NCBI GenBank assembly: GCA_021129515.1
Contig: JAJOLD010000001.1
Location: 1 to 46,505, forward strand
Length of the DNA stretch: 46,505 bases
DNA from: Minisyncoccota bacterium
GTDB lineage: Bacteria; Patescibacteriota; Minisyncoccia; Phycocordibacterales; UBA918
Direction: 5' to 3'
Shown: piece by piece, positions 566 to 40,400 of the stretch
Numbering within the stretch: the first letter of the stretch is position 1
How the letters are laid out: each line of letters begins with the position of its first letter
Notes under the pieces: generated by a model
The model's input: only the letters and a program-made list of their open reading frames with translations
Told to the model about the DNA's origin: nothing
Databases searched by the model: none
Position numbers and translations under genes: made by a program

Positions 566-1222
566 ATGCAGCGTAGTATTACATTTGAACCAGGTGAGTT
601 TTATCACATTTATAATAGAGGCATAGATAAGCGTAAGATATTTTTTAGTGCGGGCGACTGGACACATTTTCAAAGATTGATGTGGGTACGAAACATAGAA
701 AATGTACACGTAAGAGCAGATAGATTAAAAAGCTTCGATGAAAAACTAAATGCATCAAAATCTACATATGTAGATATTTGTGCATATGCACTCATGGATA
801 ACCACTTTCATTTTTTGCTCAAGGAAAAGAAAGAGGGAGGTATAAGTAAGTTTATGGGTAAATTACTTACTTCATACTCGATGTATATGAATAAGAAATA
901 TGACCGAAGCGGTCCGCTTATGTGTAGGTCATTCAGGGCAAAACATATAGACACAGATGAATATTTACGATGGGTTCTTACCTATATACATCTTAATCCA
1001 GTAGGGAAATTGGAGTCAGATTTTGAAAAAGCAGGGATTAAACATGAAAAGGAGGCAATTAAATTTTTGTATGAATATAAGTTTACAAGCTATGCCGATT
1101 ATTGTATTGAGGAGAGAGACGCCAGTATGATACTGAACCAATCAGTATTACCGATAGAAACCGACTTGATGTGTGATATGGAATACTTGTTCACGACACT
1201 AAAAAACAACCTAATGTCCTAG
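566..1222 (+). CDS. REP-associated / IS200-like Y1 transposase (RAYT)
   Basis: This is a 218-aa HUH endonuclease of the Y1 transposase family (Transposase_17/IS200-like, RAYT branch), which nicks and rejoins single-stranded hairpin DNA. The N-terminal YHIYNRGIDKR is typical of this branch. The HUH metal site is His80-Phe-His82 in DNHFHFLL. The catalytic tyrosine is probably Tyr104 in LTSYSMYMNKKY, followed by the family motifs GPLMCRSF and YIHLNP. Length is normal for RAYTs. The gene lies between two palindromes with a common core, and its stop codon (1220-1222) lies inside the right palindrome, so gene and hairpins look like one unit. No second transposon gene, such as tnpB, is present. Gene content and AT-richness differ from the housekeeping genes next to it, which fits a mobile origin. 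Whether it still moves cannot be told. Confidence 0.9.
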   Translation: MQRSITFEPGEFYHIYNRGIDKRKIFFSAGDWTHFQRLMWVRNIENVHVRADRLKSFDEKLNASKSTYVDICAYALMDNHFHFLLKEKKEGGISKFMGKLLTSYSMYMNKKYDRSGPLMCRSFRAKHIDTDEYLRWVLTYIHLNPVGKLESDFEKAGIKHEKEAIKFLYEYKFTSYADYCIEERDASMILNQSVLPIETDLMCDMEYLFTTLKNNLMS

Positions 1223-16338: not shown

Positions 16339-17166
16339 ATGAGACGAGTACTTGGAGGGCTCAGATGGCTTTTGGTGACGATGGGTATTGTCCTACTTAC
16401 GAGTATTACTATTGACGCAACCACCTCACATACCATTAGTCAATCAGCATTGGGCATTTTGGCTCGCACTGTCACGCAAACAACATGTCCTACCGGTATG
16501 GTAGAACATACCACTGCAGACCGTCGTTTTTGTATTGACGTATATGAAGTATCACCGAGCTGAGCCTGTCCGTTTGAGACGATAGCAAGTATTGAAGATA
16601 CTCGTGCAAATATCGATGAGCCAGATTGTATGCCTGTATCAATACACAACGTATCACCATGGGTATATGTCACCACACACCAGGCACGGGCACTGTGTGC
16701 TCGTGCAGGGAAGCGACTGCCGACACATGAGGATTGGTACACCGCTGCGCTCGGGGTGAGTGATGTTGCGTCTGACCCTGTGTGCAATGTTGCAGGACAA
16801 GCTGTGGCAGACACTGGTGCGCATGCGTAGTGTGTATCGGGGAGTGGTATCTATGACAGTATCGGAAATGTATGGGAGTGGATTGATGCATCGGTAACCG
16901 ATGGCAGGTACGGTGCGTCGACGCTGCCTGAAAGTGGCTATGTGCATGGCGTGGATCAGTATGGTGTTGCACTCCTCACTGGTGACACGGGTCATTCCGA
17001 TTATCATCATGATTATGTGTGGACACAGCCTGATGGTACATACAGTATGATGCGTGGTGGTTTTTATGGTAGTGGTACCGATGCTGGTTTGTATAGTATT
17101 CAGGCTGCTGTGGTGTCAGAGTTCTCGGGTGTGGCAGTCGGGTTTCGGTGTGTAAAAGATATCTAG
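16339..17166 (+). pseudogene. SUMF1/formylglycine-generating-enzyme-like protein, broken by two in-frame stops
   Basis: One continuous frame of 276 codons is interrupted by TGA (16561-16563) and TAG (16828-16830). Read through, it parallels the intact neighbour at 17186: a signal anchor, CPTGMVEHTT..RFCIDVYE, then VSPWVYVTTHQARALCARAGKRLP, GIYDSIGNVWEW and the end MMRGGFYGSGTDAG..VGFRCVKDI. At both stop positions the intact copy has alanine. Both stops keep the frame, so this is point-mutation decay and not an indel. A short translated product from 16339 (74 aa) would be only the signal and the domain start. Confidence 0.85.
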
Positions 17167-17185: not shown

Positions 17186-17989
17186 ATGAAAGCAATTAAA
17201 ATAACACTTATTATACTCTGTTCGGGCATTGTGACTGCGCTTGGTATTGATGCTGCGGATACCCTAAAAGGTGCAGAAGGCACCCTCCTTTCACAGGTCA
17301 TCCGCACCAGTGAGACTGGGTGCCCTGCGGGGATGGTGTCTGTTGCGCATGTTGTGGGTGTCCGGTGTGTTGATGTGTATGAGGCAGGTGCGAGTGCTGA
17401 CTGTCCCGTACAACATCCAGCAAATACGTTTGATACGGTTTCGAATCTAAACGATGCTTCGTGTCAGGTAGTGTCAGAGGTATCGGTCGTGCCGTGGCGG
17501 TTTATTACTCGCGATCAGGCGATGCAGATGTGTGCTCGTGCAGGGAAGCGGTTGCCTACAAGTAGTGAGTGGTACCAGCTGAGTTTAGATATGGTTGATG
17601 GAGAACAGCAGTGTAATACGAATACCTCACAAGTGCTCCCAGCAGGAGATACCACGGCCTGTGTATCTTCGCATGGCATATTTGATATGGTTGGGAATGT
17701 ATGGGAATGGGTAGGTGATGATGTGATTGATGGTGTGCACAATGGTCGTGCTCTACCACCTTCTGGATATGTGACCCAAGTTGATGCGGGCGGTATTGCG
17801 GTATATACCGCAGATACGCCATCGGAGGTATTTGGTTCAGATTTCTTCTGGTCAAATGATGTTGGTGCCTTCGGCATGATACGCGGCGGGTACTATGATA
17901 GTGATACTGATGCCGGTATATATACCGTGCATGCAGATACACCACCAAACTTTGCTGGTGCTGCTATTGGTTTTCGATGTGTTAAGTGA
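17186..17989 (+). CDS. Secreted SUMF1-fold (FGE-sulfatase/C-type lectin-like) protein
   Basis: A 267-aa protein with an N-terminal signal anchor (ITLIILCSGIVTALGIDAA) and then a SUMF1/FGE-sulfatase domain. The motifs are VPWRFITRDQAMQMCARAG followed by KRLPTSSEWYQL, GIFDMVGNVWEWVGDD, and a C-terminal MIRGGYYDSDTDAG..AIGFRCVK. True formylglycine-generating enzymes use a specific Cys pair near the C-terminus that I cannot identify here, so this is more probably a binding or structural use of the fold. The same fold is used by the variable proteins of diversity-generating retroelements, but no reverse transcriptase or template repeat is in the window. Its decayed paralogue lies 19 nt upstream. 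Confidence 0.85.
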   Translation: MKAIKITLIILCSGIVTALGIDAADTLKGAEGTLLSQVIRTSETGCPAGMVSVAHVVGVRCVDVYEAGASADCPVQHPANTFDTVSNLNDASCQVVSEVSVVPWRFITRDQAMQMCARAGKRLPTSSEWYQLSLDMVDGEQQCNTNTSQVLPAGDTTACVSSHGIFDMVGNVWEWVGDDVIDGVHNGRALPPSGYVTQVDAGGIAVYTADTPSEVFGSDFFWSNDVGAFGMIRGGYYDSDTDAGIYTVHADTPPNFAGAAIGFRCVK

Positions 17990-18020
17990 CCAAACGAGCG
18001 TACGCGACTATTGGGAACCT

Positions 18021-18210
18021 AGTTCCCGATTTGCGGTATTCATAGCAAATCGCTGGAACTCGAAGTCTGAAGTATTGCTAAAGACGATGGTCTTGCGTTA
18101 GTTCTGGATTTTGCCCTTACCTAGGCAAAATCCCTAGAACTCGCGGTCGGCATTATCGCTACAGGTGATGGTACTATGTTAGCTCCCGATTTGCGGTTTT
18201 CTTACAGAAA
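18021..18210 (+). repeat. Tandem array of ~80-nt structured units
   Basis: The gene-free interval 17990-18317 contains two full units (18021-18099 and 18100-18180) and the start of a third (18181 on). Units 1 and 2 each open with a two-part hairpin: AGTTCC/GGAACT plus GATTTGC/GCAAATC in unit 1, and AGTTCT/AGAACT plus GATTTTGCC/GGCAAAATC in unit 2, with the same 1-nt and 3-nt bulges. The changes are compensated on both arms. The spacer that follows (41 nt by my alignment) is about two-thirds identical between units. Unit 3 keeps the left arm (AGCTCCCGATTTGCGG) but loses its partner. No reading frame explains it. Confidence 0.75.
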
Positions 18211-18317
18211 CTGTCTATATACTGGGGTTTTGAGGCTGGTTCTAAGGTTTCCATATACATAACATGGGAACAGCCGAAAAAACCTGTCGATTGGCTACGG
18301 TACAATACAGATATACC

Positions 18318-20126
18318 ATGGTACATACGTGGGGTCGTATATGTATGCAGTTTATAGGTGCGGTGCTGAGTATCGTCGTGCTTTTTTGTATTGTTGCTCA
18401 TGTTGCTGGTGCTGCGGATATCAGGAACTATAGTGATACGCTGACTGACTCTGCACCAAGTGAATACTCAAACCATACGCTCAGATTTATTACCAAAGTA
18501 CCTATTCCGACCGGTGGCTATATTCGCTTCAGGCCGAGCCCTGGAGACTTTACCATTCCTACTACTAATTTTGGACTACGCAATGTTGCGCTCTATGTTG
18601 GTGATGTTCTGCGCAACACGGGTACTACCACGAGCACTTCTACCGACGGGGTAAGTATTACAACCGGCACCAATGGTGCAATTGAAATCACACTCAACAC
18701 ACTCACTGGTATTGCAGCGGATGCTGAGATTCTGCTACGTATTGGCTCGTCTACCGTACATGCCACCTCAAGTGATTTAGGTATCTTGAATCCGTCCTCA
18801 ATTGGTACCTATCCAATACATATTGAAACGGGTGGTGGCACTACCAGTGAAAGTGTTCGAGCCTTGGTGGCAATTGTGCATAACGTACAAGTGCCAAATG
18901 TCGATACTACTGAAACGGTACCGCCGCATCGGTTTAATGGTGCGCCATCGGGTGAGCTCTCGGGTACGTCACTCATTGTGCAGGTGTCACTGGAGACAGA
19001 TGAATTTGCGTTGTGTCGCTATTCGACGGCATCCGGCACACCATATTTTTCAATGACCAATCAATTTACAACTAATTTTGTCACGGTACACACCTTTGAC
19101 CTGGAGGTCGCTACGAGTACTGCATACGATTTATACGTTCGTTGTATTGATGACGAAGGAAACTTTAATACCGATGATTACCTCATTAGCTTCTCTATCC
19201 CTGAATATCCTGAGGGTGAACCAGGTACTGAAGGTGACAGTGATGGTGATGGGGATGCAGATCCAGGTGACGGCTCACCAGATGGCGATACCGACAGTGA
19301 TGACTCAGACACCGGTGACGGCAGTGGCTCCTCAGGTGGCGGCGGCGGGGGTGGAGATGATGGTGGAGGCTTTGAGGGTACCGAAAAGCCATACCAAAGT
19401 GGCGATGGGCGCGTCATTATAAACGGGTATGCATTCCCTGATAGCGATGTCACCATACTTGTTGATGGGACGGTTATTGAAACAGATGATGCTGATGGTA
19501 CGGGTAAGTTCTCAGTCACGGTTGATGAGATTGCACGCGGTGTCTATACCTTTGGTGTCTATGCAGCCGATGCAAATGGCATAAAATCCTCAACATTTTC
19601 AACGACCTTTAGTGTAACGGGATCACGAGGATCAACACTTTCTAATGTAAACGTCATGCCGTCAGTGCAGGTGACACCTGACCCTGTGGACCCTGGTGCA
19701 ACAGTGCAATTTTCTGGATACGCAATTCCGAACGCAACCATCACTATTGAAAATCAAAGCGACAAGTCGAGTGTCACCCTGAAAACATTTACCACAACTT
19801 CTGATGGAGATGGTGCTTGGTCATATGACGCGAGTACTGCAGGATTTCAGACCGGTACCTACAAAGTACGTGCAAAAGCAAAACAAGAGAGTGGTGTCTC
19901 AACCGATTATGCTGATTGGACGTTCTATGGAGTCGGGGAAGAAGCAGATACACCACGTGCTTCTGACTTGAACCGTGACGGCTCGGTTAACCTCATTGAC
20001 TTCTCTATCTTGCTCTTCTGGTGGGGTACCGATGGTGGGGAGTCTAATCCACCTGCTGATATCAATGCTGACGGGAGGGTTTCTTTGACGGACTTCTCCA
20101 TTATGATCTTTAATTGGACGGGCTGA
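18318..20126 (+). CDS. Secreted Ig-like protein with C-terminal dockerin
   Basis: From MVHTWGRICM (18318) the protein has 602 aa; a longer frame starts at 18264. A signal peptide (IGAVLSIVVLFCIVAHVAGAA) leads into a beta-rich domain with Thr/Ser. An Asp/Gly/Ser linker follows (about residues 299-350, with runs such as DSDGDGDADPGDG) that probably binds Ca2+. Two Ig-like domains come next (about 358-434 and 447-540). The last ~55 residues are a type I dockerin with two EF-hand loops, DLNRDGSVNLID and DINADGRVSLTD. Dockerins bind cohesin domains in a Ca2+-dependent way, and a cohesin gene lies 0.65 kb downstream. A paralogue with the same C-terminal half is at 45369. A TACAAT (18301-18306) may be its -10 box. 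Confidence 0.88.
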   Translation: MVHTWGRICMQFIGAVLSIVVLFCIVAHVAGAADIRNYSDTLTDSAPSEYSNHTLRFITKVPIPTGGYIRFRPSPGDFTIPTTNFGLRNVALYVGDVLRNTGTTTSTSTDGVSITTGTNGAIEITLNTLTGIAADAEILLRIGSSTVHATSSDLGILNPSSIGTYPIHIETGGGTTSESVRALVAIVHNVQVPNVDTTETVPPHRFNGAPSGELSGTSLIVQVSLETDEFALCRYSTASGTPYFSMTNQFTTNFVTVHTFDLEVATSTAYDLYVRCIDDEGNFNTDDYLISFSIPEYPEGEPGTEGDSDGDGDADPGDGSPDGDTDSDDSDTGDGSGSSGGGGGGGDDGGGFEGTEKPYQSGDGRVIINGYAFPDSDVTILVDGTVIETDDADGTGKFSVTVDEIARGVYTFGVYAADANGIKSSTFSTTFSVTGSRGSTLSNVNVMPSVQVTPDPVDPGATVQFSGYAIPNATITIENQSDKSSVTLKTFTTTSDGDGAWSYDASTAGFQTGTYKVRAKAKQESGVSTDYADWTFYGVGEEADTPRASDLNRDGSVNLIDFSILLFWWGTDGGESNPPADINADGRVSLTDFSIMIFNWTG

Positions 20127-22360: not shown

Positions 22361-22410
22361 TACAATTGGCGGACATTCTATCCGGATGTTTCCGTCTAAT
22401 TGTTAGTGTG

Positions 22411-25400
22411 ATGAGATTTTTCTCAAAAACAACAAGAAAAAACAACATAATACCCTTATTTACAGCGCTATATGGTACTGCGTCGGCTTTTCGTAGTGGA
22501 CGACGCAAGATATTTGCAATCTATGGGCTCTGCATGTTGTGTGGACTTGGTATGTTTGCACATGCACAACTCGGACAATCAACCGTGACCACCATTGAAA
22601 CCGTGCATGTATTCCCAGAACAGGTCACTGCAGTTGGTTGGAAAAATGTTGAGTCAGTAGTGGTGCAAAACCTGGATGAGTTTGCGTTGTATCAAGAGTT
22701 CAATAAGATTAATTCCTCCTACCCTGATTCTGATTTCTTTAAAAAAGAGATTGCCACACAAGAAAAGAATCCTGACACTGAGTCTGAATCGGCAGAAACG
22801 CCTGAGCCTGTAGCAGTACCGCAAGACATAGAAGTCGAAAAAGAAACGGAACAATCAGAGGTGGCAGCATCTACCTCTGAAGCACCTGCAGTGGTGTCCG
22901 ATGATACAGAAGTGCAAGCAACCACTACTACTGAGCAGGTTGCGGAACCAGTGGCAGCGGGTACAACAGATGCTGTTTCTGATACGGATGCAGAAGACAC
23001 AGATACTGCTGAGACACCTGCTGCAGACGATACTGCGCCTGTGGCTGATACTGATGCTCTAGAGGTTGCGGAGGACGAAGAACCTGAAGCTGAAACTGAA
23101 ACACCTGCTGCATCAGATGAGCAGGATACAGTTGATGCTCCAGTTGCCTATACACCAGTGCCGTTTACCTCTGTATTTGCAGCGCTCATTGACCCAATGC
23201 CATTTGTATCGACTGCAACAACGGTGCCATTTATTGATATAAGCCAGGAGTCTGTCGCATACATTGAAGCAGATGCGGAGGTGGTTGAAGACGTTGTGTT
23301 AGTCGATAGTACTGTCGAGACGGAGGTGCCTGTGGATGCGTCTGAAGACACTCCTGATACTTCGGTAGGGACGGTTCCTATGGCAACCACTACTTCGTCT
23401 GAAGCAGATACAATACCTACTGTTACTACAGAGACACCGCATGAGGAGGTTGTAGCAACATCAACCATACCTACTGCATCCGAACCATCAGAGGCGGCAA
23501 CCACAACGGAATCTGTTGTGGCAGATGTAGACACACCGCATGCAACAACGACTACTGCCACAGCAACTCCAGTGCATGGTTCCGTTGCAGAAGAGGTGTA
23601 TGCATCGACTACTGTGAGTTGTGATGGTGCATGTGCCTTTTCAAGTATTACGCTCTCAGGTTTTGGATTGCCAATTTTTGATGAAGAGCGTGCATTACGT
23701 GGCGCACAGCTTCGCATGTCGTTTGCAGCACAACGAAAAGAAACGAGAGATGTTATACAAAATATGCATGTGCGGTATTCATTTGATGATGGTGCTACAT
23801 GGATTCCTGGTGGTGATGTGTTCATCCAAGAGGATGCATCAAACAGTCTCAATGGTGGCTACTTCTTGTTTGCATTGCCACAGATTGCGGATCCTGCATT
23901 GCTTGATAACCTCACTGTTGAACTAGTGTACCGAGATAACCCAGCAGTGCTGACCGGGCTGTTTGTAGATGCGGTGTGGTTGGAAGTGTTTACGGTGAGT
24001 GAAACTGTTGATCCGCTCCTCTCAGTGCAGGAGCTATTGAAAGATAATGGATTTGATGCACAGCCTTTGTCAGGAGATGTATTGGTACTTGATGATGGCA
24101 CTGCGTTGCAGTTTGATACCACGGATGAAAATGAAGATGAAACACTCATTATTAAATCGAACGATTTGATATATGAGGGATTGACCAAAACAACCACATA
24201 TTTCAATGTTACCAATACGAGTAACACTAAAGACACCTTTACCCTACAAACATACTTCCCAGAAGATGTTGGTACGGTACTCGCGCTCGAAGAGTGGAAC
24301 CAAAACAAAGAAAAGGAAATTGTCGTTCCAGAATATCGACCGTATATCTATCACTGTGAAGCTGGTTGGGAGCGATCTGATGGTTCCGTCGAGAGTACTC
24401 TCGAAGATCTCTCGCGTGCACTTATTGAAGCGGTTGCGGAGACTGAAGCTGACACTGCCACCAGCACTCCGGCGTCAGATGCCGCTACGACTACTGAAGC
24501 AATAGATGTAGCGGAGTCCCTAACTGCAGCAACGACAACCGATGATGCACCAGTGCCTGCACCGTTAGATACTGACGCTGATGACATCGATGTACCGCAC
24601 TCTGCAACAACGGAGATTGAAGCACCTGTCCCAGACGCGGTGCCGTTATTGCAAGCAAATCTCTCATTAGTATCGAGCGCTACAACCACGGACGATGCTA
24701 CAGCTACAATGGACGAGGCACATCCTGCTGATGAGGAAATACCGGCATATGTCTGTCGCAACACCACCATTGTTCGACAGTGTGATGTGATTGAAGGAGA
24801 CAATACCACCTGTCGTGTCAACAATATGAAGGTTGCGACACACGAAGTGACTCGATATTACGGTGGCTGGGAAGAGTCTGCAATTACAGCGGGTGCCGTA
24901 GAAAAAGATACGGGCGTGCTGCATAAGGTGAAACAATTCTTTGGCTTTGCGGCGCGCACTAAAGCAGTGCCTGATGTATTTGAAGCGCGCTCATACTCAG
25001 AAACCACCTACACCATCGAACCTGGAGAAACAAAATACTTTAAGATGGATATCGAGTTCCCGCCACTTTCACGCGGTGAGTTCTGGGTAGAGGCAATTGG
25101 TGCACGTGAATACGGACTCCTTGACCCATTCTGGTCGAGTGAATGGAAGTATCGTTTGCCAGTGATGCTTGATAATACACTGGGTAGTGACACGCTGACT
25201 GACCATCAGGTGCGCTTTACCATTCCAAGTACGGCAACTGATTTTTGGAGCAATGTAAATGCCGATGGAAGTGATGTGCGTTTTGTACAAGAGGTTCCTG
25301 GTACGTCAGATGATACCTGGTATGACACATCATGGAATACCCGTATGGCGATTACGGTGCAAGCATCTGAAGTGGATGCGACCTTAAATAATTTCCCCGT

Positions 25401-28400
25401 GTATGTAGACCTTGCCACACTGGGTGCTGAGTTCTTTGATGCTGTGCGGAGTGATGGCGGTGATATTCGTGTCACGGCAGCTGATGGTGTCACTGAAGTG
25501 CCATATGAACTGGTCGCTATTGATACAAGTGCAGAAACTGGTGAGTTGCACTTCCAGGCATCGTCGATAGCAAGCAGTGTTGATACCGTGTTCTACATCT
25601 ATTATGACAATGAGGGTGCACTTGGATATGCGCGCACTGATACCTATGGAAGTGAGCAGGTCTGGGATAGTAATTATCTCGGTGTCTACCACTTAGTAGA
25701 AACAAGTGCTGGGGTTGCTGGTGAATTTAAGGACAGTACCAGTAATGCGCATGATGGTGTCGGAGAAAATACGCTGCCAACACCCACAACTGGCTTCATG
25801 GGTGTGGGGCAAAATATGCAGTCGGGTCATATTGACTTGGGTGCTGCATCGCGATGGACGGATATTGGTACAAACGATGAATTCAACCTGTCTGCATGGA
25901 TTAATCTTGATAATTCTTCTAGTGATTATGCGATTGTGTCACAGTGGAGTGGTGGTGGCGCAGGTGTGTTGCTCTGGGCTGATGCTGGAGGATCGGGAGA
26001 TGGATTCTGTCTCTATGGTGGCAATTATGCACCGTCTGATTGTCAGGATCAAAATGATCAATCACCTGGAACGTGGCAGCATATTGTTGCACGCTATGAC
26101 AGCATTGATTGGTCGCTGTATATCGATGGTGCCATTAGTGGGTCTGGTGCAGTATCGCAAAGCTTAACGCAGCAGCCGGTTGGTTTTTCTATCGGTTCAG
26201 TACAAGCGGATGATAATACCCACGCCTTTGATGGACGAATGGATGAGATTCGTATTTCAAGTATTGATAGGGGAGAAAACTGGCTTGAATCAGAGTATAC
26301 CAACCAAAGTGCCCCAACAACATTTTATGCTACTTCGACTCCAGATGAGCTCGTGACCACACAGTATAGTGAGCTCGATTTCTGGATCCAGCACTTTAGC
26401 ACCACCACCAACGAAGCGGACGTCTGGGTGCAGGTAGACACGCTTGCTGCGGGCGCCTCGACTACTATCTATCTCTACTATGGTAATGAAGACGCAACCA
26501 TGGGCAGCGATGCCTTTAGTCCGTTTACCTATGACACGCTTACGCCAACATATTATGTGCTTGATGATATTGCCACCGGACCAATTCAAGTCTACAGCTA
26601 TATTGATAATAACCAGGTGCGTATTGATGATGGTACCCCGGTGTCGCTTGATGCGGGTGAAATGACTTCCTTTAGTACCTATAGTGGTTCTTCAACGATT
26701 AGCGCACTTGGTCCTATCGCTGCCACTATTGATGCTGCAGCAGCAGACTCTATTACCCCGGTTGCGTTTGCCTCAACTACACAGGCAGGACCAACTAATC
26801 GTAATACCTCACAATGGTTTGTGTTGTCACCATTTGCGAGCAGCTCGGTGCAAACCTATATTGCAAATAGTGGTACGCCAGATGAGAACTTTAGTGTGGC
26901 AACTGGTACGGTTGTGACTTCAAATACCGATGCAGGAGGGGGTCAGTCCGTGATTTTGGAATCATCGGACCCAATATTGGTGTACCACCGTGAATCAGGA
27001 AGTCGCGATAGTTTTGTGCTCTATCCACCAACTACTGATGATCTCTATGGTATTGATTCAAACAGTGTGTATGTCACGGCACTTGCAGATGATCCAGATC
27101 CAACGGTGTACTGTTCAAGTGGCTCAAGTGCTACGGTCACTGGTGTTACGCGGGGAGAACGACAAAACGTTAGTACCTGTGTGGCAGCGGGAGAGGGTGT
27201 CGGTGATGCGGTTCGGTTTACTGGTGCGAGCACGCCGTTTGCGGCTATTCAGCAGGCTGACTCTGATGGTAGTGAGTCAACGACATTCTGGCCTGAGTAT
27301 GAGTTTGGTACAACATACTATATCCCTACCGACATGGCGTATGCGGCGATTGTGTGTGCACCGCGGTATGGCACGACCACCCTTGAAATACAGCCAAATG
27401 GTGGTGGGTCTGCATTAGAATCTGCAACCTGTGTGCCTGGTGCAAACATACCAGGTAAAGCGTACTTTGATAATGGACGGGGGGGTGACACCTTGGCATA
27501 TGCAGCAGGGCATATGATAGTGTCGACCAATGACGTCCCGTTCTATGTCATCTATGAGGATGATGAGGAAGACAATGATGAAACCAATATTCTGACCAAT
27601 GTCCAGGGTCGTAAATTTACAAAGACACCTATCACGGCTGCATTTGGAGCACAAGAGATAATTATTGACGCTGAGTATACCCAACATTCATTTGGGTGGT
27701 ATGAAAACACTGATGCAGAAACCGTTACTGATGCGTGGTCACTTGGTGAAGGTGCCTATGCGACCGAAGGCGTGCATATTACCGGGCAAGGCGCGGTGAA
27801 CGATGATGATGTGTTGCGACTCCGTATCAATGCATTGGCGAGTGCGGCAACAGGCACGGCAACATCATCAGCATTTAAGCTGCAATATGCGGTGTCTGAT
27901 ACCTGTGCCGTGAGTAGTACGTCGTGGCATGATGTCGGTGCAATCGGTAGTACTACCGCACACTTTACCGGGTACGATAATGCTTCAGTGTCTGATGGTG
28001 CCACACTTGCTTCTACGACACTGGCATCAAGTACGGTCTTTGCAACCTATGAAGAAGAAAACCTATCAAGTCGTAACCCGGTAGATATTAATCCAGGTGC
28101 GTATGCAGAATGGGACTGGGTCATACAAAGCGCCAATGCATCGGTAAATACAAACTACTGTTTCCGGATGGTGCGCGAAGGTGGACAGCCGTTGGTTAGC
28201 TACACAACGTATCCAGAACTCTATACTGCGGGACCACCACTTCAGGCAACGACATTGGTCTACTTTGATAATGAACATACCGCAGACCTTGATTCGGTAC
28301 TCGATTTCACTGCAGTAGATGCTGCGGGTGATGATATTAATTACCAGGTGCAGATTGATACAGACCCTTCATTCGGTAGTCCTGTTGTCGACAGAAACTC

Positions 28401-31400
28401 GCTCACCAACTTCTTAGAATTTGAGAATATCAATACACCGTCTGACAAGGCACCATTTACCAGTGGTAACCGTATTCGGTTTACTTCACCAACAACGCTG
28501 ACAGCGAGCACTACGTATTGGTGGCGGGTGCGTGGTCGTGATCCTGATGGTTCTAATACCTATGGGACGTGGTCAGTACCAAGCAGTTTCACTACCAATG
28601 GCGCTATCGTGGTCAGTGAGTGGCATCAGACTACTGGACATCAATTTGATACGGACACCTTGGTCAATCTTGCAACGAGTACGGGTGCGGTGTCACTCAC
28701 GAGTAGTCCGGCGGTGCTTACCACATCAGCTATTGATTTTGACGATGCAACCGTGGGTAATGCATGGGGTGCGGTCACGTGGAGTGATACTGAAACGTCA
28801 GGGACGATTCTCTATCAGATAGAGTATTATGACGGTACCTCATGGGCGTTGGTGCCTGATAGTGCACTTGCAAACAACAGTATTGGTAATGGTACCGCAC
28901 CGCTCAATATCTTAGGACTTGATACAGATACCTACAATCAAATCCGTATCGTTGCAACGCTCACCGGCGCCACACTCTCAATTGAAGACCTCACCGTACA
29001 ATGGGGGCAGCGAGTGAACACACCGACACTGCTTGACCCGTTTGATAACGAAAAAATTGCAGACACCACACCTGAATTCACCTTTACTACCACCGATCCG
29101 CAACTCGATGATTTGGTCTACGAGGTGTCCTATAGTACCGACTATATATTTGTAAGTAGTACTACTGTCAACTCGAGTACCACACCGGCAGATTTTGCAA
29201 ATGTCTCGACACCGCTTGATACTAATCCGTACAATTCGGGTGATACCATTCGCTACACCATACCGGGTGGGGCAGCCCTCACTAACGGTGAAACTTACTG
29301 GTGGCGGGTGCGTGCAAAAGACCCAGCCGGAGGAGATGCCTGGTCACCATGGTCTGATGCTGATGCGCTTACCGTTGATACCTCGGTGACGGTCTCGACC
29401 TGGTTCCAAACGACCCAAGCACAGTTTGCACAAGGGGAACTTGATGGATTGGTTGCGTCGACCTCGGGCTCAGTGGGACTTAACACAGAAATTGGAGAAT
29501 ACGGAAAAGTAATTGTTGATGCAGAAGATTGGACAACGGTGAACACAACAGGCTCGTACAACACACCAGTGGTGGTAGCGTCACTCCGATATGCACCACA
29601 AGGTGAAACACAACGTGCCGTGCGTGTCCGTAACAAAACTGAAACCTCATTTGAAATAAAAGCAGATGATCCAAATGGTGTGTTGACGGGTACAACAACC
29701 GTTGATTATTTGGTGATGGAAGCGGGTGATTGGACCATGGCTGATGGTGCCGGCGGTACACGCGTTATTGCAGGTACGTTTAGTGAGGTGAGCGATGTGC
29801 AGGGAGGTGGCAGTTATGCAGGAAGTGGATATGGTGAAGATGTTGCCTTTTCTCCACCATTTGCAAGTGCGCCAGCAATTGTTGCAACCGTCTCAACTGA
29901 AAATGATGCGTCCTGGGTGGTCGCGCACCTCAACGACGGCAATACACGCTCAAACCCACCAGATGCAAGTAACATGGGTATATATCTTGGAAGGAGTGCC
30001 TTAAGTGCGGTGCATGATCCTGAAGATGTTGATTATATTGCGATAGAAAGTGGACACGGTACCAATAACGGTGGTGAATTTGATGCTGACGTAGGTTCAG
30101 ATTCACACAATGAGCCACCGGTCACTGCAGAGGCATATAACACCGCATTTAGCGTTGCGCCTGAAGTAATCATTGTGATGCAGGCGGCAGAACAAGACGG
30201 TAATGGTGCATGGTTCTCAGTGTATGAAGATACAGCACCAACTGCTGCAAACTATTATCCTGTAAGCGATGAAGCAGGAGACCGAAACCATACCCCTGAA
30301 CCGGTGTTTGCGATTTCATTTGAAAATGCATCGGGAGTACTGGTGCGTGAAGCATCATCGGGCGGTGGTTTGTCAGGTACAATCTATAGTGAACCTATCT
30401 ACTTTAGTGATGGTGCTGGTCCAAAGTTTGAGGAGTTCCTTTGGAGTGATAGCACGCCAGGTACGAGTACTATCCGGTATCAGCTTGAGTATCTTGCGGG
30501 TGGGTCTACCTGGACGCTCATTCCTGATACCGATTTAGCTGGAAACAGTGTGGGTACTACTACTGCACCAGTTGACTTGACGGGGCTTGATGTGGTGACA
30601 TATGACACCATTCGTATTGTTGGTACATTGGCGTGTGCAAATGGTACTTGTCCTGAGTTACACGACTGGACCATTGCATGGTCTGAAGGGGTGACTGTGT
30701 CAGGTACTGCACAGGAATATGACCGAGCCACGGCAGTGACTTCAGGGACGGTGCGGATTGCGGTAAACGGTGTGTTGAGTGCTAATACCGGCACTATTGC
30801 AGGTGGCACCTGGAGTATCAACAACATCACTGCATTTGCAGGCGATGTAATTACCGTGTTTGTCGATGGAGCCGCTGAAGCACAAGAAGCAGTGAATGTC
30901 TTTGTATATGACGGCATCGGTGACATGACGGGCGTCGCACTCTATGAGCAGCATCTCGCACTTGATGCAGATGAAACAGCGACCACAACGCTTGCACATC
31001 TCAGTACATACGATAATAGCGTGTCTGGTGATGAAGACATCTTCTTTGATGTCGACGGGTTAGGCGATTTGACGCTCTGTACTGCTGGTGCGTGTAGTCG
31101 GATTAATCTGTACATTGGTGCGGGCAATAGTTTTGTGCCCGCAACATCAACGGCTGAAACACTCCGTGTACACGACTATGTCAACGATGGATTTGTTGCA
31201 CTTGATGGTAATACGCTTGAGGTAAGTGGATCGTGGGAAAATAATGCCAATACGCAGATTGATACATCGACCGTTATATTTACTGCATCCTCGACGGTTG
31301 AGACACTTGCTGATGTGTCAGGTACACTTTCTTTCAATAACCTCACTTTTGGTAATGCGGCAAGTACAGCACAGTGGCAATCAGCGTATCCGTATAGTAT

Positions 31401-34400
31401 TGCCGGTGATTTGTCAGTGCAGTATGGAACATTGGATAGAGCGTCGTCGACGATAACGGTGTCGGGTGATATTACGACGGGTGCAGCAGGTATCTGGTCT
31501 GGTGTAGCAACGACCACCTTTGCAGGAACAGCACCGGCGCAATGGACCGATGCAACTACGCTTGGACAGGATATTGGACATGTGGTTATTGATGGACCAG
31601 CGCTGACCGTTGCTGCACAGAGTAATGTACGTGCGTCATCGATCATCATTGGTGCTGATGACACCTTTGATGCTGGTGGTACCTATACCATTGCCGTGCT
31701 GGGCGATGTTACTAATAACAACATATTTACCCCACGCACGAGTACCTTGGCATTGGTTGGTGCGTCATCGGTGGTGACTATGAACAATTCGTCACTCTAC
31801 ACCGTGCATGCGTCTGCAACTATGAGTGTTGCATTTACTGATACCAATATCGTCGTGTTGGATAATTTCCAAATTGCGACAGGTACGGTGACCTTGCCAA
31901 CGGGTACCACAACCATTGGTGGCTCCTTTAGTAACATCGGAGGTAATTTTGCACACAATAATGGTGCGGTGGACATGGTTAGTACCGGTGCTGAAACGAT
32001 TGCGCAACAAGGTACCAATTTCTTAAATGCATTCTACAATCTGTCATTTACGGGTTCTGGTAGCTGGTCATTTGTCGATACTGCAGCAACAACCACAAAC
32101 GATTTTATTATTACCGATGGTGCGGTGACGCTCCCAAGCAGTCAGCTTACGGTTGGTGGTGCATATCGTACTGAGGGTTCTGGTTCATTTGCGCACAATA
32201 CTGGTGAGGTCGTGCTCTTGGTCACTGCAAGTGATGCGGTGACGACAAACGGTTCTGCCTTTGAGGATGTCCGTATCCGTAACGCGGCAAGTGGTGCCTG
32301 GTATGACTTTGACTGGACAAGTCGAAAAGCAATTACTATTGATGCAAGTGTGATTGACGCAACACTGACCAATTTCCCAGTCTATGTTGATTTAGCGGAC
32401 TTGGGTTCTGATTTCTTCACTGAGGTCAATGCAGACGGTGGCGATATTCGTATCACACAAAGCGATGGGGTCACTGAGGTTGCGCGCGAAGTGGTGGCTA
32501 TTAATACCGGTGCTGAAACAGGAGAATTGCACTTCAATGCAACCAGTATTGCAAGTACGACCGATACCACCTTCTATATCTACTATGGAAATAGCGGAGC
32601 GTCGGAACCTGCAGCAAGTGCAACCTACGGGAGCGAGAATACCTGGAATAGCAATTATGAAGCGGTGTATCACTTGAGTGAATCCGGATCGACGTATAGT
32701 GATAGTACCAGTAATGGGCACGATGGTACGGGTGAAGGTACCAATCCAACCGTAACCACTGGGGTGCTCGGTGATGGGCAAGATATTGCCAGTGGGCGCA
32801 TTGACCTCGGTAATGGCATGAATACGGATCTTATTTCCGCAGGTGCGTATGTAGTATCTGTGTGGGTGAATCTCGACACCTCAGCAAGTGACCAGTCACC
32901 TGTCTCACAATATACTGCTGCAGGAGATTTTCTCTTCTGGGCTGATGCAGGCGGAGGTGGGACGGGATTCTGTCATTACAACGGTACGTATATGCCAAGT
33001 GACTGTGTGGATTTGAATAATCAAAATGTAAGTACCTGGCAATATCTTGTTGCTCGACACGATGGAAGTGTTGGTTCGGTGTATGTCGATGGACAGATTA
33101 CAGGCGTGGGTGATACATCGTCAACGTTTGCCGTTGATGCAGGTGTGCGGTTTTCTATCGGTACCCAAAATGGTGACAGTACCGCCCGGCAGTTCAATGG
33201 ACAAGTCGATGAAGTGCGTATTGTATCAAGCGCACTCTCTGCGGAATGGATTGCCGCAGAGTACCAAAACCAAGCAACCACCACTGATTTCTATACGATT
33301 GCTGCTTCAGAAGATGTCTTTGCGCGCACCTTTACTGAGGCTGCCGCTACGGTGCTCGGTGACATCACTATTGAAAGTGGTGAGGTGGTATTTCCATCAG
33401 GAGTACTCTCAGTAGGTGGGTCGTTTGATAACGATGGTACGTTTGCTGCAAATAACGGTACCGTGCTCTTTAACTCAGCTGCAGGGAGTGAAACTATTGC
33501 TGCGGGTGTGTCTTCGTTTGCGACCGTGCAGTTTAACCATGCCGCAGGCGACTTTACAATTACAGAGCATGCCACAGCAACTGATGCACTTGCACTGGTA
33601 GATGCTGCATCCTTTACGGTCAATAGTGGTTTAGTACTTGCATCACAAGGTGCCTTTACCAATACCGTGGGCGGTGCAAGTACGACTTGGACGGGTACAA
33701 CGCTCAAACTCTCAAGTGGTGGGGATGTTCCTATAAATACTACTGCTGACGCCGGTGACACCTATGCAACCCTGCTAACGACAGGTGATACCAGCGTTTC
33801 TATGTGGAATTCAGCTGCAGGTACGTACACCACCATGGATACTGCATCTATTTATTCACAAGATCATGCGGGTGTTGATGGTGATCTCTATATCTTTGGA
33901 ACATACACACGAGACAGTGGTACAGAATACTGGAGTTATGCGACTGATTTTGACGGTACCGACCTCGGCACCACATCACCGCGTGCCGTCTCCGTACATG
34001 TAGAAAACGGCGCGTCGGTAACTATTGCAACATCTTCGTTCGAAATGCGCGGTGTTGCAGGGGCATCAACTACGGTCGATGCACAAAGCGGCAGCTTTGC
34101 TATTACTGCAGCACATGCAACGGTCACGGCAGAATACTTTACGATGACCGGTACTGATGCAGACGGACTTGCCTTGACGAGTTCAACAACCGTCACTACC
34201 TTTGATCGCTTTATGTTCACCATCGGTGCTGGGGTGTCTGCAGTCACGGTAGATGCGTCCACTATTGATACGAATCCTGCTGCACAGTTCTTTGAAACAG
34301 GATTTGTCAGTGGTGGTGGGTCTGCCAACGTAACGCTCAGTGGTAGCCCCACTTCATTCTGGTGGTTCCGCGATGGTGCGGGTGACCGATACGGAGAAGC

Positions 34401-37400
34401 CTTTGATAACGCTGATGGTAATCCTGGTGCATTACGCTGGGATGATAGTAATTACACTATCGATATTTCGGGTACCGTGTATGCCGATGATGGTACCACT
34501 ACACTCGGTGGTCCAACCTGTGACGGTGTCACCAATGTCGTGCGTGTGGTTGTTGATGGTGGTACCTATACCGATAGTGTGCCGTGTAGTGATGCCAGCG
34601 GAGCATACACATTGAGTAATGTTGCGTATGTGGGTGATGCTGATTTGGTAGTGTATCTCGATACAAATGGTGGTGTGCTCGGCAGTGTCTATACAAAGAC
34701 ACCAACGGGGAATATTACCGACCTCAATATATATGCACATCGTGTCATGACTCGACACGAAGATACTGCTGCAATGACTATTGCCGATATGGTGCATTAT
34801 GATGAAGACGATGATAGCGACCTGCGTGTGTCTACCGCGACGGGCTCACCAGATACAGTGATTGTACGTGCTGACACTGAGCTTATCATTGCATCAAGTA
34901 CCACGTTTGCACCGAGTGGTACCGTTACGGTGGAATCGGGAGGTAGTGGTATGGCATATGATGGCTCATTCCATATCGATGACAACGCGACCTTTACTGC
35001 TAGTGGTACAGAAACACATCGTGTTGGTGGTAGTTTCTTCCGTGATACTGGCTCGAGTTTTGATGCAGCATCGACCACATTTATCTTTACTGCCACAACC
35101 AGTGGTAAGGCAATTACCAGTGTGGTGAGCGGTGATACAGCATTCCATGCAGTGCAGTTTACTGGCGTTGGGGGAGCCTGGAATCTGAATACCGATATTG
35201 CATTGACTGCAGACCTGACACTTGCCACCGGTACGCTTACAGGAACTGGCAATATTACGCTTACGCAAGGCGCATTTACTGGTGACGGTTCGCTGTCACT
35301 TGGTGGCGGTACGGTGAGTATTGCGGAGGGGAGTGTGCTTGGTGGGGTCAATCCATGGACATTCCACAACATAACGCTTGGTACCGGCACCACATACGGC
35401 ACGACAACCAGAGCATCGCTCGCGACGACGACGGTCGGTGGCGTGCTCACCGTTACTGCAGGGCATGTGCTCGACATGGGTGGTTCGCACTGGGAGCTTG
35501 CTGGCGCAGGAACGCCATTGGTGCTGACGGGAACACTTGATACAGCAACCAGTACAGTACGGTACAGTGCATCTGCGGCAACCAATATTGTGAGTGGTGC
35601 GTATTACAACCTCCTTTTGAGTGCAAGTGGTAATGCACCAACATATACGGCAATCGGTCCTGGTATTACCGTTGGTAATGCGCTCACGATAGGTGGTGCA
35701 ACTACAACCAATGTGACCTTTACCACCAACGATACCGCTCTCGATGTTGCAGGGGATATGACCATTGCAACAACAGGTGTCTTTGTGGCAAGTGACAGTG
35801 GCAGCTTCACCCTTGCGGGGAGTTATGATAATAACGGCACCTTTACCGCAGGTGATGGTACGGTCACCTTTGATGGTGTCGGGAGTGCAACGGTTGCTGC
35901 GGGAAGTTCGGCATTTGCGACGGTGCTACTCACCGGTACCGGTGACTATACGTTTAGTGAATATGCATCAGCAACGGAAGCATTCAGTATCGGAAGTTCG
36001 GTGGGGTCGTTTACACTTGCAAGTGGGGAAACCTTGGCGGTTGGCGGCACCTTTACCAACGCACTTGGTGGCGCATCAACAACATGGAGTGGTTCAACGC
36101 TTGAGCTTGCGGGCGGCAGTAATTACGCAATCAATGCAAAAACTATCGCAGATCGGTACAACACGTTGGTCGTAGCGGACGGAACACAAATTCGCATGTG
36201 GAATAGTAGTGCAACTACTACCATGGTACTTGATACGAGTTCACTCTATTCAATGGATCATGCCGGTGTGGATGGTGCGGTGTATGTATATGGTACCTAC
36301 ACTAAAACGGCTGGTACTGATTATTGGAGTTATGCAACTGACTTTGATGGTACCGATTTGTCTGGTGGTGATGAGCGAGCCGCATCGGTGTACTTTGCTG
36401 AGTATAGTACTACCACATATACCGGTGGTGGATTACAGGTGCTTGGTACGGCATCGGCAACCACGACCCTCCAAAAACAACCACCACTTGCATCTGGGGT
36501 GACCATTGTTGATGGCTTTACTTCGGGCACCACTAAAACCATTTCAGCAGGCATTAATCGACTATTGGTGGTTGGTATTTTTGCTGAAGATAGTGCAACA
36601 AATGCAGATATAGACACCGTCACGTATGGGGGAGAAACAATGACTGAAATACATGATGAGCAAATCACCACCGTCTTTACCAATGCAGTATGGGTTGGGT
36701 ATCTCGATGAAACAGGGATGAGTGCTGCTATTGGAAATACCATTAGCCCAACATGGGTTGGCGGTACACCTGACTCTTCCGTGCTCTATAGTTCGGTGGT
36801 GCTCGGGCATGTTGATCAGGTTAACCCAATTTCTGGCTGGAGTGCAGATAGTGCGGCAAGTGTTGCAACACTGCAGGCGACGTCATCACTCTCTGTGGCA
36901 GATGGGGACCGCACGCTCTATTTCACGGGTGTTGGTTCGGGTGGGGTAACGCATACCCCTTCCAGCGGCTATACCGAAGGTACTGAGGAAGACGATACCA
37001 GTGCCGTTGCAGCAACTGCCCACCGCGCAATTACGGGAAGTGGTACAGAGTACCCAACCGCAACATGGTCGAGTGCTGTCAATCATGTGGTAATGCTTTC
37101 ACTCAATGTCCGTTTTGCAACACCACTGGCGAGTACCTACGGGTTGCGTATTGGTGGTACGGCATCAACCACATGGTCCTACTATAGTATTCGCGAAATT
37201 GATGCAGATGGGCTTACCTTTAGTGGTACACCAAACGTCACCTCATTGTCATATGGTGATTTCCTTGTCGCACATGATGGTGGTTCAGCGCTCACTATTG
37301 GAGGTACGGTGATTAATGAAAATCCAGCAAAGAACTTTGTTGCAAACACCTTTGCAACGTCGAGCACCTTCGCGACTGCATACAATGTCACTGCAACGGG

Positions 37401-40400
37401 TACGGCAATCAGCTCATGGCGCTTTGTGAGCCATGTCGGTGATCTTGCGGGTGAATCATATGATAATGATCTGGGCGGTGACCCTGGGTACGTGGTGTGG
37501 GATGATAGTGCGGCTAATATTACGATTTCAGGAAACGTCTACAGCGATGAAGGAAGTACTGTGTCTTCAGTGTGTGATGGTGCAACCAACAACATTACAC
37601 TGCGGGTTGCTGGCTTAACCAGTTACACTACAAGCTGTAATGCAACCACAGGCTTCTATCAAATTACGGGTGTTGCCTATGGTCCAACCGATACCCTCAC
37701 ACTCTACATTGACAACGAGCCGGAAAACGCGGCAAACGTGACGGTAGCCCCGGTATCATCAATTGGTGATATGCATTTGTATGAAAATCGTGTCATTGTG
37801 CGTCATGAAAATACTGACCCGCTCACCATCGCAGATATGTCTGTATGGGATGATAGTGATGATGGTGATATTCCATTCACTGCGGTCGATGGTGGTACCG
37901 ATACCCTGACCCTCCCTGCAGATTACAAACTCATTGTATGGAATAACAAAACCTTTGCACCAGCAGGTAATATAACGCTCGCAGGCGGTGGCGCAGGTGC
38001 CGCGTATGATGGTACGCTCGCACTCTTTGCAGATGCACAATTTGCCGCAGCAGATGGAGAAAATCATTCCATTGGAGGCAGTATGGTGATGGATGCCGAT
38101 GCAGTATTTGATGCACAGGAATCAACAATGACCTTTACCACCACAGCTGCAGCGCGCACTATTGATACCAATGAGCAGCCATTCTATAAACTCACCTTTA
38201 ACGGCACTGGTTCATGGTCCATTGCAAATACCGATCTGGCAGTCGATAGTGATTTGAGTATTACGCAAGGTACGCTCACACTTCCAAGCGGTACCACAAC
38301 CATCTCAGGGTCTATGAATGCGGGTGGTGGTTCATTTGCACATAATAATGGTGTGGTGGTCTTTGATTCAGCAGGTACCGGAGAAGTGCTGTTGACTGGC
38401 GGATCCGCATTTAATGAACTTATATTCACGGGTGATGGTTCATGGAATATGAATGATACACATGCCACCGCAACTGACCGCGTGCGTATTGCCAATGGAG
38501 CTGTTCGATTCCCATCAGGTTCTATGGCAATTGGTGCAGATTTGACCGTACATGCTACAGGAACTCTGATGCACAACAATGGTGCTGTGTGGCTCACCTC
38601 AACTGCACCGACTACAACCGTGACACTCACTGGGTCCGATTTGTACACACTGGTTGCAAACGGTGATAGCGAGCTCGTGTTTGCCGATACTAACGTGGCA
38701 TTGCAAGGTGACTTGACCTTGCTCCAAGGCACCACAACGGCAGCGACCGGTACACTCTCTATTGGTGGCTCATTCCAAAATGATGCATCGTTTAGTCATG
38801 CTTCAGGAACACTTTACTTCAACTCAGGCGACACTGGAGAAACGGTGTCAGTTGGTGGTGATGCACTACACAACGTGCTCTTTGCATCAGCGGGCGGTGG
38901 TTGGACTATGGTGACGAGTGCAACCACAACGGGTAATTTCTCACTCACCAATGCAACGGGGTATGTACAAACATCAGGTACCACACTCACGGTTGCCGGT
39001 GTATTTACCAACACAGTGGGTGGTGCTGCAACTACCTGGACTAATACCACCCTTCGACTCACCTCTGGTACCGACTATGCAATCAATACCAAGGCAGCAG
39101 GAGGGGATAGTTACGCAACCATAGCACTTGCGGATGAGATGGATGTGCGTTCATGGAATTCAAGCTACACCACGGTCACGCTCGCGACATCATCACTCTA
39201 TTCTCAGGACCATGCATCGGTTGATGGTGACCTCTATATCTATGGTGACTTCACACTTGCAACAGGAACCGCATACTGGAGTTATGCAACGGACTTTGAC
39301 GGTACGGTGCTGACTGGTGGTAGTCGCCGCGCGGTTGATGTGTTTATAGCATCAGGATCAACCGTCAGTGTTGATGGCGGCTCGCTCTATATGGTCGGTG
39401 ACGCAACAGCAACCACTACCGTGCAGGGCGTGAGTGGCTATACCTATCCATTTAGCGTTGCGAGCGGTCTCTTTGATGCACAATATTATGCATTTAGAAA
39501 TCTCAATGCATCAGGACTCCATTTTGCAGATACACCAACCATTAATGCACTCTCATATGGAGATTTTGTCTTGGATGTTTCAGGCGGCTCTTTGATTACT
39601 CTCAGCTCAACCACCTTAAATGCAAACGCCTCAATGGTTATTCCGGGTGTACGCTTTGCAACCACATCGGCAATTTCTGGTGTTAACGTTACGCTCTTGG
39701 GTACTACCACTAATGCATGGCAATTCATTGGACACAGCGGCAATATCAGTGGTGAGGCATATGACAGTGACGATGGTACTAATTGTGGTTCAATTCGATG
39801 GGACGATAGCTCATGTTTGCTCACGCAGCAGACTGGGTATCGATGGCGTACTGACGATGGCGGGTTGGGCGTGCCTGATGATGAATGGCTTGATACCGAC
39901 TGGAGTAAGCGTCGGCAAATTCGAGTACGTAATGATGATGCAACGACCTATACCAATATGCCAGTACGTGTAGAAGTATCTTATGACAGCGACATGCAGA
40001 CTGACTTTGAAGATGTACGCTTCACCGATGCAGCAGGAACGACCGAACTCTCATATTGGGTTGAGCGATATACCGCAAGCACCGATGCAACTGTGTGGGT
40101 ATTGGCACCGTCATTGGCAGCATCAGACATTACCACTATCTATATGTACTATGGGAATGCACTAGCAACCTCATCGGCTTCTGGCACCGCAGTCTTTAAT
40201 GCATTTGATGATTTTGAAGATAATGATATTGCTGAATATAGCGGTGATACAACCCTCTTCCAAACCGATACCACCTTCAACTATAACGGGAACTTTGGTC
40301 TTGAAGCGTCAGACACCAACGAAAAAACAGATAATGGACTCTATGATACAACCGATGTTGCAGGGCAGGGTGAGATTATTCGCTACCTCCAATATATCGA

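Follow-up and report, generated by a model that had tools for sequence, protein, structure and literature searches.

The window, the whole 46,505-nt stretch of DNA analysed here, carries a short array of hairpin-forming repeats between a gene for an FGE-sulfatase-domain protein (17186-17989; Pfam, 2.1e-12) and a gene for a secreted dockerin-type protein (18264-20126). The first-pass annotation had described two tandem units with two-part hairpins in what it took for a gene-free gap. Both units are real copies of a repeat, but the element starts further left, at 17984, within the final codons of the FGE-sulfatase gene, and a second, 5′ hairpin had been overlooked; the observation itself is confirmed, and the units are part of something larger. 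Copy 1 (17984-18060; this and all other features of the array are given on the forward strand) is a full-length element of ~77 nt, matched at 17984-18059 with 67.2 bits by R2, a covariance model of the full element (77 positions, 25 pairs), and at 18004-18062 by R1, a covariance model built from seven copies in the same genome. Its 5′ hairpin (17984-18020), AAGT-GA-CC-AA ... TT-GG-GA-ACCT around the mini-hairpin GCGTACGC, carries tandem G·A pairs and corresponds to helix 1, which covaries in alignment A4. The ORF list, the sequence and the junction table agree that the upstream FGE-sulfatase gene stops at the TGA at 17987-17989, which lies within copy 1.

The 3′ hairpins in the window consist of a 6-bp outer stem, a CT bulge, an inner stem of 8-10 bp and a loop of 8-10 nt. 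In copy 1 (3′ hairpin 18021-18060), the outer arms AGTTCC (18021-18026) and GGAACT (18055-18060) enclose the inner arms CGATTTGC (18027-18034) and GCAAATCG (18045-18052). Copy 2 (18083-18141) has a divergent 5′ half and an intact 3′ hairpin (18100-18141), and was matched by R2 at 18083-18140 (43.6 bits) and by R1 at 18084-18143 (E 1.3e-14); its outer arms are AGTTCT (18100-18105) and AGAACT (18136-18141), and its inner arms GGATTTTGCC (18106-18115) and GGCAAAATCC (18124-18133). The paired base changes reported between the two units are present as described, and the bulges are indeed of equal size, two nucleotides (CT) in each, but they are confined to the 3′ side (18053-18054 and 18134-18135). 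The fold places a Watson–Crick variant of the 5′ hairpin, GC-TA-AAGAC-GATG-GTCTT-GC, at 18077-18096 in copy 2. The third unit is truncated, as had been noted: only the left arm, TAGCTCCCGATTTGC, is kept at 18180-18194, with 88% identity over 25 nt to 18020-18044, and this remnant was not matched by the covariance models. The array is bounded by the end of an unrelated dispersed inverted-repeat element (18224-18246, GGGGTTTTGAGGCTGGTTCTAAG), which has matches of 96% and 91% at C10:14414 and C1:281372 of the same genome. This second dispersed element is MITE-like, with inverted ends CTTAGAACCAGTCTCAAAAC / GTTTTGAGACTGGTTCTAAG, and is ~118 nt long at locus L008.

Twenty-four copies were aligned without reference to structure. 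Their consensus reads AAATGA-NN-AAA-N-GA-GC-GTA-GC-GA-Y-TATT-NN-GA-ATTTA, followed by the 3′ hairpin, in which the 2-nt CT bulge on the 3′ side is conserved. In the 5′ half, AAAT pairs with ATTT, NN with NN, AA with TT, and GC with GC in the mini-stem, and the paired blocks are separated by tandem G·A appositions. The NN/NN block occurs as GC/GC, AT/AT, AC/GT, AG/CT and CC/GG, and the mini-stem also as GT/AC, AC/GT and AT/AT; the mini-hairpin is mostly GCGTAGC and at times GCGAAGC, with a loop of GNA/GNRA type. In some copies Watson–Crick pairs replace the G·A appositions (GCCC-AAA-GGGC at L030; TAGATAA/TTATCTA in the copy after dnaN in genome G029). Across the alignment, 97.6% of cells pair (560 Watson–Crick, 21 G-U and 14 mismatched among 595), with changes on both sides in 18 of the 25 pairs; paired cells fall to 29-47% in slid controls, no shuffle attains the real score, and the covariation score is 0.515 compared with at most 0.078 in slid controls. 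For helix 1 (the 5′ hairpin, alignment A4), 98.4% of cells are paired and five pairs show double changes. Both hairpins covary strongly, and the folded shape is kept while the letters change in pairs, which supports the earlier proposal of selection on structure. The outcome that the first-pass annotation had named as refuting it, a lack of further genomic copies together with a lack of covariation, did not occur.

Minihairpins of sequence GCGAAGC are known to be extraordinarily stable as DNA. Together with the G·A tandems and the scarcity of G-U pairs, they lead us to lean towards single-stranded DNA, rather than RNA, as the selected form. Standard DNA parameters, which model tandem G·A pairs poorly, predict a weak 5′ hairpin. 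In three copies (L085 6054-6156, L100 5342-5439 and L094 11661-11814) the 5′ mini-hairpin is seemingly expanded by tens of nucleotides into a longer internal stem, such that this position seems to tolerate insertions. The two 3′ hairpins of the window fold as DNA with z = -5.8 and -8.0 (0 of 200 shuffles as good), and for the region as a whole z is -3.5 when folded as DNA and -2.5 when folded as RNA. A switch, in which the right arm of one unit would pair with the left arm of the next, had also been proposed. The within-unit stems (-17.2 and -20.6 kcal/mol) are stronger than the cross-pairing (-12.5 kcal/mol), and most copies elsewhere are solitary, so that pairing between neighbours cannot be a general function; we rejected a riboswitch or inter-unit switch on these grounds.

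What the reading as tandem units had overlooked is dispersal: the element lies near many unrelated genes, in both orientations, and an insertion present in one genome can be missing from a close relative. Further copies in the same genome first came to light in a DNA search, and with R1 this genome holds at least 11 copies at E < 1e-11; a weaker match adds one more, giving about a dozen in total. The covariance-model search of other genomes that the first-pass annotation had recommended found many more: R1 gave matches in 22 of 59 relatives, all in one Patescibacteria family, with up to 24 copies per genome among the matches listed, and R2 found the element in 32 of 49 family genomes, the other 17 giving no match. 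In a phylum-wide sample of 380 genomes, where 12 candidates were scored per genome and weak relatives could be missed, matches occurred only in the genome of the window and in one other family member, and in none of the 378 genomes outside the family. The named carriers are Patescibacteria MAGs, with labels including Paceibacterota, Nomurabacteria and ‘Candidatus Elulimicrobium’. Rfam 15 gave no match at gathering score and none up to E 1 over the array in the window; at permissive E-values only chance matches fell on the element. No match was found in viral contigs by an exact-pattern scan, nor in phages and plasmids by distant blastn. Copies occur singly, in tandem or as inverted pairs, in either orientation. 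In genome G014 (L041, L085 and L087), clusters reach five copies, with inverted pairs that overlap in BIME/REPIN fashion and near-identical longer repeats in common between contigs. Within-genome similarity of copies (0.730) is barely above that between genomes (0.702; p about 0.001), indicating that most copies are old.

To describe the insertion context, neighbouring genes were called with a simple coding model around 141 good copies, five of which overlap a called ORF. The relation to upstream and downstream genes was sense/sense for 57, antisense/sense for 22, sense/antisense for 19 and antisense/antisense for 19. On the left, ~40% of the upstream genes in sense orientation (34 of 86) terminate in the opening 6 nt of the element, while at the right end a single sense downstream gene of 84 abuts it; divergent upstream genes start within 4 nt of the element in 9 of 46 cases, and a T-run, often that of an apparent terminator, precedes 18 copies. 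Left junctions are precise, whether at a stop codon, a terminator T-run or a start codon. On the 5′ side, the context favours about ANRTT, with C nearly absent, and the 3′ tail is variable, with no clear tetranucleotide. No clear target-site duplication was seen, the right end being undefined; a possible ATCTAT repeat at L110 was not reproduced elsewhere. Between co-directional genes, the sense orientation is in excess (57 versus 19, p = 1.5e-5), and this drops to 23:12 (p = 0.09) once abutting copies and those after T-runs are removed, so that target choice explains most of the excess. In 12 copies, including the one at the FGE-sulfatase gene, the upstream gene ends at the element's own TGA or TAA; TAA takes the place of the internal TGA in 6 of these 12 copies compared with 7 of the 124 others (p = 1.5e-4).

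The genes next to the copies are unrelated to one another, and no recurrent non-housekeeping gene was seen among them. Several sites recur in several species (aspS, xth, dnaN, rplJ-rplL and glyS), and at secF and rpmG the orientation differs at one and the same gene. Two further observations concern such sites. Upstream of aspS in the genome of the window (contig C1; L003 1373-1630), where several relatives also carry the element, a copy lies inside a weak match to the T-box leader (E 0.0067; 21.7 bits, where Rfam requires 93), and GGGTGGCACCGCG is present. Beside the dnaN array, near position 1390 of L002 (contig C8), lies the palindrome CATTCTGAAACAAGTTCAGAATGACA, which looks like a dispersed hairpin.

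Comparison between relatives shows insertion/absence polymorphism. For the closest genome pair by dnaN (G031 and G034, 82.5% identical), five insertions of G034 were tested and all five were element-free at the matching places in G031, where the corresponding flanks were found in every case (in one, the left flank only); a weak match in this comparison (L221:2655) is located elsewhere, not at the tested sites. The absences in G031 could reflect loss instead of non-insertion. Directly after the dnaN stop codon, the element is present in 5 of 30 genomes read and in G059, and on a dnaN tree these genomes fall on four separate branches (G000; G025; G027 with G029; G033 with G059), whereas in most relatives only a few nucleotides separate dnaN from the next gene. 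Whether by repeated gain at this one target or by repeated loss, the element is dynamic. At truB, the copy common to G010 and G023 shows 96% identity and a single compensated change in the stem, despite a dnaN identity of 72%, which suggests that copies can also be kept under constraint.

The best-known makers of patterns of this kind are HUH Y1 enzymes, those of IS200/IS605 and the RAYTs (PMC6006769, PMC8266576). In the genome of the window, three Y1 genes are related to REP-associated transposases, all under the NCBIfam cut-off (window 566-1222, L010; C1:113364, L011; C3:54373, L009). Each appears to have a distinct short perfect palindrome on both sides (e.g. GGGGTCGGACCCC, CCTAGGGGACCCCTAGG and GGGGTCAGCC), and in relatives this layout recurs around the RAYT-like genes with other palindromes. 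Y1/RAYT genes are frequent in the relatives, and some are decayed. Within 1.5 kb of 32 Y1 loci, the search found no element except two chance-level matches (best E 0.14); the better one, L009:1383, lies 16 nt before a RAYT of the genome of the window and was treated as chance. Nor did any of these 32 loci present an autonomous parent IS, with a Y1 tnpA between such ends. By HMM, a RAYT is absent from seven of eight element-bearing genomes checked, these seven having 2 to 15 copies, and the eighth (G015) has a 99-aa RAYT fragment; none is present in the element-rich genomes G014 and G025, each ~99% complete, or in G034. We therefore rejected RAYT as a resident enzyme: given its absence from seven carriers and the lack of adjacency, the element does not at present depend on a RAYT encoded in the same genome. 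The analysis turned up no gene that would mobilise it; the mover may have been a transient RAYT, a different ssDNA recombinase or a source now extinct.

The element is REP-like but not REP by definition. A REP has a GTAG or GTGG tetranucleotide 0-2 nt 5′ of its hairpin (PMC6006769). In the consensus, GAATTTA precedes the 3′ hairpin, and GTAG occurs in the element solely inside the 5′ mini-hairpin, where it varies to GTAA, GAAG and AAAG. The conserved 2-nt CT falls within the 1-3 nt of a long-REP stem bulge, and there are many intergenic copies, as singlets and BIME-like clusters; a RAYT flanked by the same repeat, as in a REPtron, was not found, and carriers do not regularly hold a RAYT. The likeness to REP, BIME and REPIN sequences lies in short, intergenic, dispersed hairpins with a stem bulge that occur as singlets, tandem arrays and inverted pairs in both orientations. 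The element differs in its length of ~77 nt, its two hairpins with tandem G·A in the first, the lack of a GTAG guide at the hairpin, the lack of a linked RAYT (none being needed in the same genome) and its junction at stop codons and terminators.

Other known systems resemble it in part. PATEs and MITEs derived from IS200/IS605 likewise have two subterminal hairpins on one strand, an AT-rich target 5′ and no obvious duplication, but the element has no clear cleavage tetranucleotide at its right end and its hairpins are a few nucleotides apart. Integron attC sites have in common with it a structure conserved over sequence, extrahelical bases, presumably recognition as folded ssDNA, and a location near gene ends; the element, however, lacks R and L boxes in the right polarity and cassette arrays, and its neighbours are fixed housekeeping genes. 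On inspection, the boxes RYYYAAC ... GTTRRRY are absent from the consensus, and GTT ... AAC in copy 2 has the opposite polarity, so attC was rejected. TIGR arrays (TIGR-Tas), which occur in parasitic bacteria (PMC12045711), also consist of tandem stem-loop units; they were rejected on architecture, the element being mostly in single dispersed copies, with no dual spacers and no recurrent non-housekeeping neighbour. A diversity-generating retroelement (DGR), suggested by the FGE-sulfatase/C-type-lectin-like gene upstream, was set aside; the repeat also lies near dnaN, glyS, secD/secF and obgE. ERIC, BOX, RUP and Correia are likewise dispersed intergenic repeats with secondary structure. They are dsDNA-type repeats of other phyla, and we know of no sequence relation between them and the element.

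The most likely reading is a lineage-specific, REP-like dispersed element with a new two-hairpin architecture, probably mobile: a family of short non-coding sequences of one Patescibacteria family that are mobile or recently were, to which we give a probability of about two in three. Each ~77-nt copy comprises two hairpins on one strand, the 5′ one with tandem sheared-type G·A pairs and the 3′ one with the CT bulge, and mobility would be the cause of the pattern. The element would be, or recently have been, non-autonomous, its folded ssDNA recognised in trans by an HUH-type (TnpA/RAYT-like) or other ssDNA recombinase; insertion would occur on the 3′ side of a target resembling ANRTT, and small arrays like that in the window would result from tandem and inverted duplication on the spot. 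Host genes have taken over the element's TGA as a stop codon. A more specific version, in which two-hairpin mobile DNA with tandem G·A targets stop codons and terminators, is moved by a non-RAYT ssDNA recombinase and supplies host stop codons, is tentative.

A cis-acting structured RNA in neighbouring transcripts (a leader or 3′ UTR element, an attenuator or a protein-binding site) would also account for the strong covariation, the 57:19 sense excess and the recurrent positions at aspS and the other sites, and tandem G·A pairs and GNRA/GNA loops are RNA motifs as well. We consider it improbable: the neighbour genes are unrelated, orientations are opposite at secF and rpmG, close relatives have empty sites, Rfam gave no match, and the element does not hold a consistent sense position upstream of orthologous genes. 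RNA families also usually tolerate more G-U pairs than the 21 of 595 seen here. Somewhat less probable still is that the copies form a true REP/BIME family which a cognate RAYT (TnpA_REP) of these genomes moves; the intergenic, bulged hairpins in singlets, tandem and inverted pairs and the common, partly decayed Y1/RAYT genes would suit it, but the consensus lacks GTAG/GTGG 0-2 nt 5′ of the 3′ hairpin, the RAYTs here are apparently flanked by different short palindromes of their own, no element lies beside any RAYT, and G014, G025 and G034 do without one. The retention of structure over large divergence, as in the truB copies of G010 and G023, could instead mark a DNA site for a host protein, kept for chromosome organisation, DNA uptake or recombination and not selfish; copy numbers from 0 to 24 among species of one genus, and family genomes with no match, make this quite unlikely. 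A single duplication could yield two tandem copies, yet a chance hairpin pair or a local tandem duplication without wider meaning is hardly credible given copies at E down to 1e-18 in the same genome, presence in 32 family genomes and covariation beyond every control.

Proteobacteria are well known to carry dispersed elements of REP type; no paper on REP sequences in Patescibacteria turned up in the open-access literature searched, and the ~77-nt element is apparently previously undescribed. Small genomes that are usually deemed stripped down contain as many as two dozen copies of this structured element, which has been gained or lost between related species. Since many carriers have no RAYT in the same genome, what moves such elements is directly testable, and the covariation of two helices with tandem G·A pairs is a precise folding hypothesis. 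The covariance model can be used to annotate these intergenic regions, preventing their misreading as riboswitches or small RNAs. Elsewhere in the window, a 6571-codon open frame (22366-42081) encodes a giant, probably secreted protein near dockerin- and Ig-domain proteins, and a 47-nt repeat with 81% identity (16694-16740 and 17529-17575) suggests two tandem FGE-sulfatase-like genes or gene remnants.
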